Below, in pieces: positions 39,787 through 48,722 of a stretch of 64,000 nt of DNA (the first letter of the stretch is position 1; the number at the start of each line of letters is the position of its first letter). The position numbers and the translations under genes were made by a program. Location of the stretch: the NCBI RefSeq assembly GCF_002222615.2, contig NZ_CP022412.2:4506804-4570803 (forward strand). The letters run 5' to 3'. The notes beneath the pieces are model-generated. The model saw only the letters and a list, made by a program, of their open reading frames with translations. It did not search any database and was not told the origin of the DNA. This DNA comes from Bacteroides caccae. Lineage in GTDB: Bacteria > Bacteroidota > Bacteroidia > Bacteroidales > Bacteroidaceae.

Positions 39787-40472
39787 TTAAACTTTCGCCT
39801 GAGAATTGCTTTTTATCCAGTTCTGGGGAAGCAATTCACTCAATTTTTCTTTTGGAGTTAAAGATATCTTATCGAGGACATCAGATAACCATTTCTCCGG
39901 ATTAATACCAAGTACCTTGCAGGCTGCAAAGAATGTGTACATCACTGCAGCATAATGGCATGGCTCGTCGTTCTGACAAGACAGATGATTCTGTTTTCCC
40001 ATGACTAAAGCACGAATAGACGATTCCGTAGTGTTTATTGTCCACTGGAACCATATCAATAATCCATATAAGCTGTCAGTTCATCATAGTGACGGATTAT
40101 ATAATTACAAGCCTTATGCATCTGGCTGTTGGGGGGCACATCATTTACAGTGAAAACACACCAAGCTAACAAAGACTGCCAGACTATTTCTGCATTCGAT
40201 TTCCAGTAGACAATCTTATCCGCACCGATAAGGCACAATTCCTTGATTTGGTCTTCCACCCCATAAATGCTTCTGGAAAGAGAAGCAAGACCTAAATTTG
40301 ATAAAAGTACATTTTCAGTCTTTGCCCGTTCGAATTCACGACTAGCATGGGCGGAGCAGCGACACACCACTCTGCCTGTCTTGGCTATCCAGTCATAGCT
40401 CTGGCAGCCGTCACATAAAATCAGGTTTCCCCTCCGTAAGCACTCAATAGCATCCACCCTCTTAAAAATCAA
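39787..40472 (-). pseudogene. IS66-family transposase remnant 1
   Basis: Two minus-strand frames (40472-40056 and 40059-39787) read through an IS66 transposase C-terminal half. They show LILCDGCQSYDWIAKTGRVV, then CRCSAHASREFERAK (compare the GCWAHaRRkF motif), INTTESSIRALVMGKQNHLS and AAVMYTFFAACKVLGINPEK, ending at LLPQNW. An early stop after AYMDY breaks the frame, and the N-terminal half and terminal repeats are missing. The element is inactive. Confidence 0.85.
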
Positions 40473-40518
40473 GAAGATGAACTTTTGAGCAATTAAAAAG
40501 TTAACAATTTATAATGTA

Positions 40519-41130
40519 TTACACAGCCATTGACATAGGAACAAGGTCGTCATAATTCTCATTCCCGTCCAGCAAAAGCTTAATTGTTGTTGCGATATAG
40601 CCACGGGCATTAAGACCTACATTCTTGCAGGTTTCAATAAGAGTGAAAAATGTCAGTGCTGTTTCAACGCCCTCTTCAATACTAAAAAACAATGAATTTT
40701 TTCGATGTATTGTAAAAGGTCAGATGGTTCTTTCAACAAGCATATTATCTATGGTATACCGACCATCCTTCCTGTAATTTTGAAGCTCTTCCCAGCCGTT
40801 GATCATATAACTGAGTGACTTCCTCATCATCTCACCATAATGTTTCCGTTTACTGTTCAACAGTTTCATCGCCCTTTCATATATGGAAGTTAAAATGCGA
40901 GTCACATCATCCTGACTTCGTCGTTTCTTTATCTCGTGAGGCTTTAACCGTTTCAGGATGCATTCAGCTTCTACCATATACAATTCACCTATTTTCTGGA
41001 CAAACTATTCGGCATTCGCATCCTTGTTTACCTCCTAGGTCATAGCAAACTTATTGCGCACATGCACCCAACAGAGAATTAACTCATATTGGGGAAGTAC
41101 TTCACATAACGGATTATTTTTTTGGGGGTC
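40519..41130 (-). pseudogene. IS66-family transposase remnant 2
   Basis: This is a second degraded IS66 transposase in the same orientation, immediately upstream of the first. On the minus strand it reads LLPQYELILCWVHVRNKFAM, then KIGELYMVEAECILKRLKPH, GWEELQNYRKDGRYTIDNM and LVERTI with a stop. It continues FFTLIETCKNVGLNARGYIA to LVPMSMAV at 40519. Several in-frame stops interrupt it. It matches a different region of IS66 diversity from remnant 1, so these are two insertions, not a duplication. Confidence 0.8.
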
Positions 41131-43945: not shown

Positions 43946-45871
43946 TTATTTATCCAGAACCTCAAACCGCGGTGAGTTCTTCGATTTAAACTCCGGTACC
44001 ACTTTCTTCATCAACCTCACCGTATCCATGATTTTTACTGTACGCGACAACTTCTCAAACTCCGCATAAGTGTCAAGAATATCAGCATATTCATAATGAC
44101 GTACCTTAGCTATCATAATTTTCTTATTCTCTGTAGGAATCGTATTCTCCTTATCACTCAGGACTTCCTCATAAAGTTTCTCACCCGGACGTAATCCCGT
44201 AAACTTTATTTCAATATCTTCACCCGGACGATAACCGGCCAGTTCGATCATACGAGTAGCCAAGTCAACAATCTTCACAGCCTTGCCCATCTCAAAGACA
44301 AAAATCTCATTGCCCTCACCCATAGTAGCGGCCTCCATTACCAGGCGACAAGCTTCGGGAATAGTCATAAAGAAACGGATGATATCGGGATGAGTCACTG
44401 TGACAGGACCACCATTCTCGATTTGTTCCTTAAAACGGGGAATTACAGAGCCGTTACTACCCAAGACATTTCCAAAGCGGGTAGTGATAAATTTGGTATG
44501 ACCTTTCACTTTTCCCTCACGAATAGCACATCCCAGACTCTGTACATAGATTTCTGCCAGACGTTTCGAGCATCCCATTACATTGGTCGGATTCACCGCC
44601 TTATCGGTAGAAACCATGATCATTTTCTCAGCTCCGTATTCCACAGCCATATCAGCAACCTGACGCGAACCGACCACATTGACCAGCACAGCTTCACAGG
44701 GATTTTCCTCCATTAACGGAACATGCTTATAAGCAGCAGCATGGAAGATTACCTGAGGGTGATAGATATCGAACACCATACGAAGACGCTCTTTCACGCG
44801 GACATCTCCAATGACAGGAACAAAATCAAGACCGGGATAATTCTTCTCAAATTCCAGACGGACATTATGCAGAGGTGACTCGGCAGAGTCAAACATGATC
44901 AGTTTCTTGATATTCATCTGAGCCAATTGCCGGCAAAGCTCGCTACCAATACTACCGGCAGCTCCTGTCACCAACACAACCTTGCCACAAAACTCAGTCA
45001 TCACCTCCTCCATATTAATATGAATTTCTGAGCGACCCAGCAAATCCTCAATCTTGATAGGACGTACCCACTGGTGGAAACTTCCGTTTTCGTCAGCCTC
45101 ACTAATACTCGGAGCTATCAATGTTTTCAACCCGTTTCTTTTACAATACTGAAGCAAACGTCCTTCCTCTTCACGGGTATTCTCATAGCGGGCAAACAAG
45201 ATACCTCCGATACATTTCTTATGAATCAGTTTATTGAAGCACTCTTCATCTTTAAAAGAATAAACAGGAAGATCAGCCACACGCCGAATAGAATTACCTG
45301 TTCCATAAATGCAAAAACCTACAACTTTATAATGAGAACTGTTCAGTAACCGGACTTTCAATGCCACACTCTTATCATCAATACCATAAATCAGAATACG
45401 CATATTCTTTTTATTCAGTACATTCAGTAAGAATTCATAAACAATAATCAACTGCATACGAAACCCGACCATAACAATAAAAGTAAGCATAGCGTCAAAC
45501 AGTACAAAAATTATTTTCTGACTGTTATGTAATCCCGTCTGTGGCAGAAGAAACCAAATGACAATGGCTATGCAGACAGCCTTTATGAGCACACTTCCCG
45601 CCAACCTCCATAATTCCTTCAACTGAGAAAAACGAATCGTATTACGATAAGTATGAAATAGAGTAGCCCCCAAAACACTCGATATAACTGAAACCGCCAA
45701 GATATGGAAAAGTGAAACTATTTCTTTGGAAGTTTCCGTAATATAATGAATGCCAATAAATGACACCCAAGTACACAGTAAAGCTATGAATGTATCGATT
45801 CCCAATACAACCCAATAGCTAAAGTAGTTTTTCTGTAAATAATGAATAAAACGGTCAAATGCGTGTTTCAT
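43946..45871 (-). CDS. Membrane-bound CapD/WbpM-type nucleotide-sugar 4,6-dehydratase
   Basis: The 641-residue protein has four N-terminal membrane helices (about residues 17-130), an intermediate Rossmann-like domain and a C-terminal SDR. The SDR carries VLVTGAAGSIGSELCRQLAQ (around residue 300) and STDKAVNPTNVMGCSKRLAE, an SMK-type active site. FlaA1/WbpM enzymes convert UDP-GlcNAc to UDP-4-keto-6-deoxy-GlcNAc, precursor of QuiNAc and FucNAc sugars. It is the first gene after upxY, a place often held by upxZ in Bacteroides capsule loci. Confidence 0.93.
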   Translation of the reverse strand: MKHAFDRFIHYLQKNYFSYWVVLGIDTFIALLCTWVSFIGIHYITETSKEIVSLFHILAVSVISSVLGATLFHTYRNTIRFSQLKELWRLAGSVLIKAVCIAIVIWFLLPQTGLHNSQKIIFVLFDAMLTFIVMVGFRMQLIIVYEFLLNVLNKKNMRILIYGIDDKSVALKVRLLNSSHYKVVGFCIYGTGNSIRRVADLPVYSFKDEECFNKLIHKKCIGGILFARYENTREEEGRLLQYCKRNGLKTLIAPSISEADENGSFHQWVRPIKIEDLLGRSEIHINMEEVMTEFCGKVVLVTGAAGSIGSELCRQLAQMNIKKLIMFDSAESPLHNVRLEFEKNYPGLDFVPVIGDVRVKERLRMVFDIYHPQVIFHAAAYKHVPLMEENPCEAVLVNVVGSRQVADMAVEYGAEKMIMVSTDKAVNPTNVMGCSKRLAEIYVQSLGCAIREGKVKGHTKFITTRFGNVLGSNGSVIPRFKEQIENGGPVTVTHPDIIRFFMTIPEACRLVMEAATMGEGNEIFVFEMGKAVKIVDLATRMIELAGYRPGEDIEIKFTGLRPGEKLYEEVLSDKENTIPTENKKIMIAKVRHYEYADILDTYAEFEKLSRTVKIMDTVRLMKKVVPEFKSKNSPRFEVLDK

Positions 45872-45955: not shown

Positions 45956-46504
45956 TTATATTATTTCTATCAAATCAGGATTTACTTCTACACCCACCGA
46001 AAAGAAATTAGGCAGTTCGACAAGAAGACGTTTGACTTTAGAGCCACGGGTAGTAAGCAGACGGCCTTCATAACCTTCAAAAGGACCTCCAATAATACGG
46101 ATCATACGACCATACATTGTATCGCTTATCTCTTCAGGTAAATAATATTTAGGATTTTCCGAACCTCGGACAGCACGTATAAAACGCTCCATATCCAAAT
46201 CGGCAACCATCATAGGCTGACAATAACCGCCACCTTTCTGGTAACGATATTGAAGGGTCGGTATTTTACGAACAAACAGATCTAGAACTTCTCTTGTATC
46301 GTGGATAAAAAGCAGGTCCTGCATAAACGGTACTTCTTCACGAATTCGTTTGCCATTTTTCAACTTTAACCGCCATTGCATAGGAGTAAATACTTCTAGA
46401 TGTTCATCACTGAGCTGCTTATAAGCAGGCAATTTAGCATTGGGACGTTTGAGGTCACGCATTACATACCAATGCATCCGTTGTTCATTCTTCAGAAGCG
46501 CCAT
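45956..46504 (-). CDS. UpxY-family (NusG-like) transcription antiterminator
   Basis: UpxY proteins bind the leader of their own capsule operon and let RNA polymerase read through the long locus. The 182 residues contain an N-terminal NGN domain (MHWYVMRDLKRPNAKLPAYK onward) and a C-terminal KOW-like end, RIIGGPFEGYEGRLLTTRGS then KVKRLLVELPNF. It is the first gene of the minus-strand capsule locus. A 650-base gene-free region upstream contains the invertible promoter segment and leader. No UpxZ partner follows. Confidence 0.94.
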   Translation of the reverse strand: MALLKNEQRMHWYVMRDLKRPNAKLPAYKQLSDEHLEVFTPMQWRLKLKNGKRIREEVPFMQDLLFIHDTREVLDLFVRKIPTLQYRYQKGGGYCQPMMVADLDMERFIRAVRGSENPKYYLPEEISDTMYGRMIRIIGGPFEGYEGRLLTTRGSKVKRLLVELPNFFSVGVEVNPDLIEII

Positions 46505-46554
46505 AAAACCTCAAGACAATTATCCTAGTCCTGCCCGATCATATATAAAACTAT

Positions 46555-46745
46555 ATATCAAGCAGTTACAATCAAATTCCACAAAAATAAGAGATTCCTC
46601 CCCGTTATTATCAGACTGTTTCATCTTCACCATACAAGATGCATTCAAGGTCTATTTACAACCTTACTTCTTATTTCTCTCTATAAGATAAATAACAGGG
46701 TGTAAGTTTTAATTTAACAATTTAGATATCAAGCAATTACAATCA
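46555..46745. repeat. 20-bp direct repeat in the capsule leader and invertible segment
   Basis: ATATCAAGCAGTTACAATCA (46555-46574) recurs as ATATCAAGCAATTACAATCA (46726-46745), differing at one base. One copy lies outside and one inside the inverted-repeat-bounded segment, 171 bases apart. It could be a binding site for a regulator or recombinase accessory protein. Its role is unknown. Confidence 0.6.
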
Positions 46746-46889
46746 TTATATAATTAATAATAATTAAACATTTGTTAAGTAAATCCTTCTCTAGAAGAAG
46801 CAATTACCCAAAATTACATCTGTTTTATGCTGTTATTTCCAATAAATTACGTACCTTTGTGCCCGTTAGTATTTCTCTTATAGAGAGAA
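46675..46889. promoter_or_regulatory. Invertible promoter segment of the capsule locus (OFF orientation)
   Basis: The inverted repeats are TTCTCTCTATAAGATAAATA (46675-46694) and the reverse complement of TTCTCTCTATAAGAGAAATA (46870-46889), matching at 19 of 20 bases and enclosing 175 bases. Each repeat is itself a partial palindrome (TTCTCT, 5 bases, AGAGAA in the right copy), which suits a tyrosine recombinase. Inside is TACCTTTG (46852-46859), a perfect -7 element facing right, away from upxY. Inversion would move it to 46705-46712 facing left, about 195 bases from the upxY start. Confidence 0.78.
46852..46859 (+). promoter_or_regulatory. -7 promoter element inside the invertible segment
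   Basis: TACCTTTG fits TAnnTTTG exactly. No clear -33 TTTG is seen at the expected spacing, so only the -7 box is called. In the present orientation its transcript would run toward and antisense to the recombinase gene. Confidence 0.6.
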
Positions 46890-46898
46890 CTATATTTT

Positions 46899-47154: not shown

Positions 47155-48363
47155 CTACAATGATTTAAGAATAAGACTATTTGCCTTATCTACCAAAGAA
47201 GTATCCAATGAGGCGAGATAAATGCGGGTAGTGTTCTCCGAGTCGTGTCCCATAGCTTCACTGATAACAGACAAGGAAATATTTTTACTCTTGGCAATGC
47301 TAGCCCAGGCATGGCGGGCAACATACGTAGTTAAAGGTATAGATACCCCCAACCGCATCCCAAGTTTTTTCAGTTTTTGATTCACCAAATGGGCAGTTTT
47401 CTTGTACTGTTTCCTTCCGTCTACCTCCATATCTCGTATAATAGGTAACAGGTAAGGGCTCCCCTGAGTATCATACCTGTCAATTATTTCTTGCATTGGC
47501 TTCTCCCATTTGATAAATAATTGTTGCCCCGTCTTCTGCCGGCGATAAGACAGAATTCCGTTCTGCAAATCTTTCTTTCTCAAAAAAGCCATATCAATGA
47601 ATGACATACCACGGGTATAAAATGAAAACATGAAAATATCTCTCGCATAAGCCAAAGAAGGACTCTTTGTCAGATCAAGTTCCTTTAAACGGCGAATCTC
47701 CTCTAACGGAATAGCACGTTTGACCGTCTTATCTATCCCTGTATAAACATATTTAAAAGGACTTCGCTGAACCGTCAAGCCCTTCTCCACAGCACGATTA
47801 TAAATAGCCCGAAGATTCCGCATATAATAAGAGGTGGTATTCGGACAAATACCGGTAGACTTCAAATAACTCTCATATTTCATCATCAAACTGGAATCAA
47901 CTTCTTCCAGCAGGACATCTTTCCCTTTCCGGAAACGTACGAAGCTGTTTAATGTAGTCATATAAGTTTCAGCGGTACGGTGTTTGCCAATTTGATTTAA
48001 CTCCTTGATAAGATGAAGAGTAAAGGATATGAAACCACTATGCTCTGTGGATGCACAATAAAGTTCTACCAAACTATCTGAAGTATAAGCAATGCCTGAA
48101 CGCTCAAGACGGGTAATAATATTCTTCAGCCTTACACTATCCTCCAACAGAGAATTTTTCAAAGAAAGCAAATAATCTCTCCGACTTTCACTGGTTACCG
48201 AAGACAGAACAACCTCCGAATGTACCGCGTCCCATTCCGCAGGAAACAACTTGTATCCGGTATGTATTTGTCTTACTATACGCTTATGAATCACTTGATA
48301 GAAAAGTGTACCTTCTTTCGTAGCGACGGAAGATGCACGGAATTTTACTTTTACTGTTGCCAT
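47155..48363 (-). CDS. Tyrosine-type site-specific recombinase (likely promoter invertase)
   Basis: A 402-residue protein. An N-terminal arm-binding domain precedes a SAM-like core-binding domain (around residues 110-205) and a C-terminal catalytic domain. The catalytic domain has the first arginine in FSFYTRGMSFIDMAFL and the box TTYVARHAWASIAKSKNISL, where tyrosine stands at the usual first-histidine position. SEAMGHDSENTTRIYLASLD contains the nucleophile tyrosine. It resembles the Bacteroides recombinases that flip surface-antigen promoters. It is transcribed toward the invertible segment, whose right repeat is about 265 bases past its stop. It probably acts on those repeats (inference). 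Confidence 0.92.
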   Translation of the reverse strand: MATVKVKFRASSVATKEGTLFYQVIHKRIVRQIHTGYKLFPAEWDAVHSEVVLSSVTSESRRDYLLSLKNSLLEDSVRLKNIITRLERSGIAYTSDSLVELYCASTEHSGFISFTLHLIKELNQIGKHRTAETYMTTLNSFVRFRKGKDVLLEEVDSSLMMKYESYLKSTGICPNTTSYYMRNLRAIYNRAVEKGLTVQRSPFKYVYTGIDKTVKRAIPLEEIRRLKELDLTKSPSLAYARDIFMFSFYTRGMSFIDMAFLRKKDLQNGILSYRRQKTGQQLFIKWEKPMQEIIDRYDTQGSPYLLPIIRDMEVDGRKQYKKTAHLVNQKLKKLGMRLGVSIPLTTYVARHAWASIAKSKNISLSVISEAMGHDSENTTRIYLASLDTSLVDKANSLILKSL

Positions 48364-48649: not shown

Positions 48650-48722
48650 TGACCCCGGTGCGATTCAAACGCACGACCTTCAGAACCGGAATCTGACGCT
48701 CTATTCACTAAGCTACGGGGCC
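48650..48722 (-). tRNA. tRNA-Arg (anticodon CCG)
   Basis: The 73-nt minus-strand sequence folds into a cloverleaf. The acceptor stem GGCCCCG pairs with CGGGGTC (one G-U pair), with discriminator A. The anticodon stem TCAGA/TCTGA encloses loop TTCCGGT, giving anticodon CCG for the arginine codon CGG. The T arm contains TTCGAATC-like TTTGAATC. CCA is not encoded. Its 3' end faces the recombinase gene, a position used as an attachment site by many integrases. Confidence 0.93.

Follow-up and report, generated by a model that had tools for sequence, protein, structure and literature searches.

Positions 46672-46892 of the window, i.e. the 64,000 nucleotides analysed here, which are the last 64 kb of the single-contig Bacteroides caccae chromosome of 4,570,803 bases, in all probability form a capsule promoter switch that is likely flipped by the adjoining tyrosine recombinase and stands in the OFF orientation as assembled (we put this reading at roughly 0.86). 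The sequence support consists of the repeats and the promoter box, the arrangement of the genes, the site motif at homologous loci and the opposite orientations found in five sets of relatives. An invertible capsule promoter caught OFF had already been proposed in the initial annotation, and it is still the best reading now that the repeats have been traced through the recombinase family and inversions have been found among relatives. The features are collected in Table 1.

Table 1. Coordinates of the switch, its neighbours and the other capsule loci of the chromosome
Feature	Position	Strand	Remarks
upxY-proximal inverted repeat arm	46672..46694	+	core TTCTCT-CTATA-AGATAA at 46675-46691; rare half-site base at 46689
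int-proximal inverted repeat arm	46870..46892	-	core TTCTCT-CTATA-AGAGAA (- strand reading) at 46873-46889
175-bp segment, predicted invertible	46695..46869		repeat search; homologous segments inverted between relatives
-7 box TACCTTTG of the predicted promoter	46852..46859	+	directed away from upxY (OFF); 8/8 kept in B. faecis
402-aa tyrosine recombinase (int), predicted invertase	47155..48363	-	Arm-DNA-bind_5, Phage_int_SAM_5, Phage_integrase (PF00589)
upxY, NusG-like antiterminator, first capsule operon gene	45956..46504	-	NF033644, 136.2 bits (cut-off 100)
Second operon gene, polysaccharide biosynthesis protein	43946..45871	-	Polysacc_synt_2
Leader hairpin 1	46590..46603	-	T-rich tail: TATTTTT here, AACTTTT in most relatives
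Leader hairpin 2 (CTGCTTG..GGGCAG)	46531..46565	-	conserved with covariation in 15 leaders selected for it
Capsule loci L143, L144, L145	G000:C1, about 3171380-3173260, 3463450-3465350, 3653850-3655750		invertible-looking capsule promoters, OFF
Capsule locus L146	about 2964000		fixed forward box, perfect, 55 nt before the upxY start

The inverted repeat search returned two arms of 23 nt that are 91% complementary and lie 175 nt apart; in the 20-bp version described earlier (46675-46694 and 46870-46889), 19 of 20 positions match and 175 bases are enclosed. Each arm is a palindrome around a five-nucleotide centre, CTATA, common to both, which confirms the earlier description of partly palindromic repeats with a short spacer and corresponds to what defines a tyrosine-recombinase crossover site, namely half-sites in inverted order on either side of a short centre that does not differ between the arms. 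The perfect Bacteroides -7 box had likewise been placed correctly, inside the segment and directed away from upxY, while no clear -33 element was found at the predicted promoter. The predicted promoter thus lies inside inverted repeats and upstream of an upxY-led polysaccharide operon, as in known capsule promoter switches, and polysaccharide genes continue beyond upxY on the same strand. A flip would indeed put it upstream of upxY, as first suggested, but the distance given then, about 195 bases, has to be adjusted, with the 3' end of the box coming to lie 200 nt before the upxY ATG. A sigma-70 promoter scan gave no excess (8 versus 9.2 in shuffles). No intrinsic terminator was found between 46400 and 48600, a null result of little weight because shuffles average only 1.2. 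Viral contigs scanned for the ON form of the window locus by means of the 20-base site pattern gave 0 matches. A 34-nt direct repeat (79%; 46712-46745 and 46541-46574) copies part of the 5' half of a leader hairpin into the segment, and its counterpart in B. faecis shows a weaker likeness as judged by eye. Pieces of an IS66-type transposase lie within the capsule gene cluster at 39787-40983.

The neighbouring recombinase carries the catalytic residues R251, K277, R350, H373 and Y382, which are invariant in all 168 homologues of our survey, and the first H of the HxxR motif is Y in 163 and H in 5 of them. The NCBIfam models for XerD, XerC and XerA-type recombinases and PRK00283 all remained below their cut-offs (44-48 bits versus 220-335). 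A tRNA gene (48650-48722, - strand) lies upstream of the recombinase gene and was the only known RNA family found between 45800 and 48900. The recombinase would bind the half-sites TTCTCT/AGAGAA of each arm, with strand exchange inside the CTATA centre. It is the sharing of this centre that would enable the two arms to recombine with each other, and the promoter and the inner half-sites would move as one. Once flipped, the promoter would initiate RNA close to the arm on the upxY side; the transcript would cross a two-hairpin leader of about 170 nt and express upxY, and UpxY in turn would engage the polymerase and sustain its passage along the operon. As assembled, the promoter would instead be directed at the 3' end of int, which lies about 295 nt from the end of the TACCTTTG box.

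Homologues of the recombinase were gathered from 158 genomes of the genus (65 matching at 1e-100, the window genome included), 399 genomes of the family (90 matching at 1e-120, partly overlapping with the genus set) and a GTDB contig scan (best 80 of 127), with part of the places listed for genus and family taken into the set and matches of less than 42% identity or ending before residue 390 left out. Removal of duplicates reduced 228 loci to 182, of which 168 offer 450 nt or more of sequence 3' of int; near copies remain among these 168. With a score of 14 or more required, an inverted repeat lies 3' of int in 116/168 loci versus 1/168 shuffled flanks and 4/162 5' flanks. Counting as a fit two arms that both match TTCTCT-N5-AGAGAA at 9 or more of the 12 half-site positions, the motif is found at 93/168 loci and in 101 of the 132 repeat pairs; the other 31 pairs do not fit, 23 of the 116 repeat-bearing loci have no fitting pair, and unrelated palindromes are among the non-motif repeats. 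The link between repeats and neighbouring recombinase, initially a personal reading of this one locus, is supported by these counts and by the five inverted sets described below.

The five-base centre was identical in 101/101 motif-fitting pairs, a biased count since these arms were found by matching. The fair test is a search for half-sites only, independent of arm matching: in 65 loci it detected two sites and no more, spaced 120-420 bp, and 63 of these loci have an inverted-identical N5, whereas pairs of sites taken from different loci do so in 756 of 63342 cases (1.2%). The same search placed a motif site in 111/168 3' flanks versus 1/176 5' flanks. Two switches in series are present in eight loci, and their centres differ in all eight (L032 and L060, both among these, are homologous). 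A recombinase gene alone is no proof of a switch, given the 23 loci with non-motif repeats and the 52 of 168 without any repeat by our rule, whose recombinases are up to 69% identical and have intact catalytic residues. Nearly all of these 52 show no recognizable site pair; in a few, the rule missed two inverted sites that are far apart (L085, L159) or have weaker arms (L179, L240). In L085, from B. caecigallinarum An496, the sites lie 82 and 3186 nt after int, about 3.1 kb apart; in L084 and L087 they are about 0.3 kb apart, so that the invertible segment of L085 holds about 2.8 kb extra. On a FastTree phylogeny of the 168 recombinases, repeat presence changes 34 times, a number that each of 500 shuffles exceeds (mean 44.7), and thus the repeat is clustered on the tree, yet was gained or lost many times; the presence of an UpxY neighbour changes 17 times (a count without shuffle control). 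An UpxY-like ORF follows downstream in 30 of 162 loci; every one of the 30 has a repeat pair, and an oriented box is present in 26 of them.

Inversion was seen in the comparison of relatives. Among 2975 segment pairs, 42 were more than 80% alike and 12 of these were oppositely oriented; three of the 12 were left out because their downstream flanks differ, leaving five independent sets (L032/L060; L157/L213; L167/L171; L230 vs L226, L231, L234, L235 and L239; L261/L264). In these relatives, as distinct from the window locus itself, homologous segments lie both ways between alike flanks. Segment and flank identity reaches 1.00 (to two decimals) in L157/L213, and turning one segment raises the identical columns from 644/769 to 723/761 in L032/L060 and from 338/493 to 434/451 in L167/L171. 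In the first four sets, the outer half-sites stay and the inner ones move with the segment, indicating exchange inside the shared core, while the arms of L261/L264 are too alike for placing the exchange point. One arm of L032/L060 has the 17 bases of the int-side core of the window, TTCTCTCTATAAGAGAA, and no -7 box was found in the inverted segment of this set. L261/L264 have a NusG-like ORF recognized only by a profile of our own (E about 1e-15), with no Pfam match.

The switches of this family are mostly OFF. Defining an oriented box as TAnnTTTG within -3 to 22 bp of an arm, we found it at exactly one arm in 103/132 repeat pairs and at both arms in none, and these 103 boxed switches comprise 92 OFF and 11 ON. 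The 101 motif-type pairs contribute 78 OFF and 9 ON, with 14 lacking a box, and the 31 non-motif pairs 14 OFF and 2 ON, with 15 lacking a box. Counted by locus, those with an UpxY neighbour are 22 OFF, 4 ON and 4 without a call, and those without one are 64 OFF, 7 ON and 15 without a call. When loci are collapsed at 85% int nucleotide identity, 74 clusters with an oriented box remain, 63 of them OFF, 7 ON and 4 with both states. The first arm starts a median of 36 nt after the int stop in the 86 OFF loci (range 13-371), and 262 nt after it in the window. One speculative and rather unlikely explanation is self-locking: the OFF promoter would drive antisense transcription into the adjoining recombinase gene from its 3' end and lower the amount of the enzyme able to reverse the state, whereas the ON state would release the gene. 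Such self-locking might explain the bias, and also the placement of switches right behind the recombinase gene. The five-base centre might in turn serve as an address by which one enzyme operates several independent switches per locus.

The alternative that survives best, improbable as we consider it, is compatible with the main reading: a former switch, now slow or locked OFF by decay of the inner half-site on the upxY side from AGAGAA to AGATAA. It is a real rival, as the decayed half-site position holds G in 196, A in 4 and T in only 2 of 202 arms, both T belonging to the upxY-side arms of this very locus, one from the window and one from B. faecis MAJ27, the closest relative among the matches listed (Int 95%, UpxY 99% identical), where the locus has the same OFF orientation. 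However, the recombinase is intact, half-site differences are also present in other switches that did flip, and the arms differ less between the two species than the remaining intergenic region does (45/46 versus 516/604 identical positions, p = 0.008), as expected if the switch is still used. Considerably less probable is an inversion of the segment by another recombinase in trans, which the 27 recombinase matches in the genome (window enzyme included) would permit; in Phocaeicola vulgatus, an upxY promoter inverts despite a broken neighbouring recombinase, according to an excerpt of PMC13114119. Against such action in trans, the site motif goes with the family of the window recombinase at 93 of the surveyed loci, three other capsule-linked recombinases adjoin a different repeat, GTTAC..GTAAC, and the exact pattern TCTCTNNNNAAGAGA has a single other match in the genome, which is at chance level and has no repeat partner within the surrounding 2 kb.

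It is very unlikely that one of the three further TAnnTTTG boxes currently directed at upxY (46912, 46816 and 46589) already drives its expression and that the segment is not the switch, for none of these boxes is intact in B. faecis (one or two substitutions each), while the OFF-directed box is identical at 8/8 positions and a box at one arm only is the rule in the family (103/132). The intergenic region is A+T-rich, but we regard chance repeats and a chance box as all but ruled out given 116 of 168 real versus 1 of 168 dinucleotide-shuffled flanks and the retention of arms and box in B. faecis. A serine-type site of the Mpi/FinA kind was rejected as well, as the arms (TTCTCTCTATAAGAGAA / TTCTCTCTATAAGATAA) are not ARACGTTCGT-like and the neighbour is a tyrosine recombinase.

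Both leader hairpins lie within 46515-46613 (- strand) and are common to 14 other UpxY leaders of the switch family. The element TAACTGCTTG, allowing up to two mismatches, is present in 17/30 UpxY leaders but also in 7/86 loci without UpxY. For the fold set (n=15), L089, which matches weakly, was taken out together with two near copies, L097 and L098, and L177 was added by eye; since the leaders were selected for holding the element, the covariation speaks for that subset only. Hairpin 1 is G+C-rich, variable in sequence and located just before an AACTTTT-like tail, and 5% or fewer of shuffles equal it in 12/15 leaders, compared with 13.5% in the window leader. Hairpin 2 (TAACTGC..GCAGGA) has 90% of its cells paired and 20 double-sided changes, and its covariation score was matched by 0/500 shuffles and by no slid version, although two of five measures (double-change pairs and further pair types) did not rise above shuffles (91 and 167 of 500). 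The window leader alone folds slightly better than shuffles (z -1.5). Its hairpin 2 5' strand, at up to one mismatch, has no match in the four other UpxY loci of the genome. Hairpins in nascent RNA are said to assist UpxY loading (Saba et al. 2024), and by analogy the leader hairpins would fit such a role.

The genome holds four more loci above the cut-off of the UpxY model, and a weaker match that we take, by its neighbours, to be the housekeeping NusG. Three of the four (L143, L144, L145) adjoin a recombinase of 314-317 aa that is 32-37% identical to the window enzyme, and have GTTAC..GTAAC repeats around a box directed away from upxY by the box-near-arm rule; L143 has a second box directed at upxY, at the opposite end of the segment. 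L146 has neither a repeat nor a recombinase match alongside. The assembly thus represents four OFF loci and one with a fixed forward promoter. UpxZ (PF06603) has 0 matches in this genome, so that no UpxY/UpxZ pair was recognized, and none in 14 control genomes; matches occur in 38/157 genus genomes (the window genome among the 157). Exclusive capsule choice is thus probably left to inversion alone. A B. caccae ATCC 43185 inverton given at 1936309-1936714 in an excerpt of PMC11892184 coincides within one base with a 23-nt inverted repeat of this chromosome, so that the strain is very likely ATCC 43185.

Switches of this kind are known, and the locus is a well-supported additional case; the comparisons with published systems that follow draw on excerpts of the papers cited. 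Capsule operon promoters of B. fragilis (serine invertase Mpi/FinA) and B. intestinalis are likewise flanked by short inverted repeats (PMC8375218, PMC3090145, PMC12632263), but these are ARACGTTCGT- or GTTCGTTTAA-like (PMC8375218), unlike the TTCTCT-N5-AGAGAA sites of the window. Moreover, B. fragilis relies on one global serine recombinase, whereas the switch in the window has its own adjoining tyrosine recombinase. Closer in arrangement is Tsr19/BF2766 of B. fragilis, a tyrosine recombinase that likewise adjoins an invertible polysaccharide promoter, OFF in the three genomes compared there, as in the window (PMC4747536, PMC3090145); the two are likened by arrangement as described. Tsr19/BF2766 also flips a distant promoter, while the window genome has only the one unpaired exact-pattern match mentioned above (mismatched sites would escape such a search).

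An adjacent invertase is also found at the IP-ARG switches of conjugative elements, one class of which has two neighbouring invertible regions, although their cargo consists of resistance genes and not of a capsule operon (PMC8748976). A common origin of IP-ARG and upxY/glycan switches has been proposed in the same paper. In our survey, L155, L156 and L202-L206 resemble published IP-ARG switches, and these seven genomes are identical over the final 600 nt of int plus the 220 nt that follow. L156, the only one of the seven checked (Int 57% identical), has a motif site before a gene of the rRNA-dimethylase family, and it is likely one of the published IP-ARG loci. A survey of Bacteroides invertons, likely including the same B. 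caccae strain to judge by coordinates, describes UpxY genes as enriched beside several inverton groups (PMC11892184).

What the analysis usefully adds is a site rule in explicit form, inversions found in nature among switches of this recombinase family, and an OFF-bias with a possible antisense cause. Repeat motifs of Bacteroidota were reportedly published by Jiang et al. 2019, and the TTCTCT-N5-AGAGAA motif may already be in their list. Neither the N5 rule nor the antisense proposal appeared in the literature passages searched, which is no proof of their absence in print.

Capsule choice shapes the encounters of gut Bacteroides with phages and host. The recombinase family occurs in many Bacteroidales, with half-sites that are shared and a five-base centre that is locus-specific, and with an explicit site rule, switches and their state become readable from assemblies. 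For the sequenced culture, this predicts four capsules OFF and one fixed ON, with no UpxZ as a second safeguard; in wild type B. intestinalis, one capsule locus is mainly ON and four mainly OFF, according to an excerpt of PMC8375218. Likewise, the cause of the OFF-bias across the family becomes testable.
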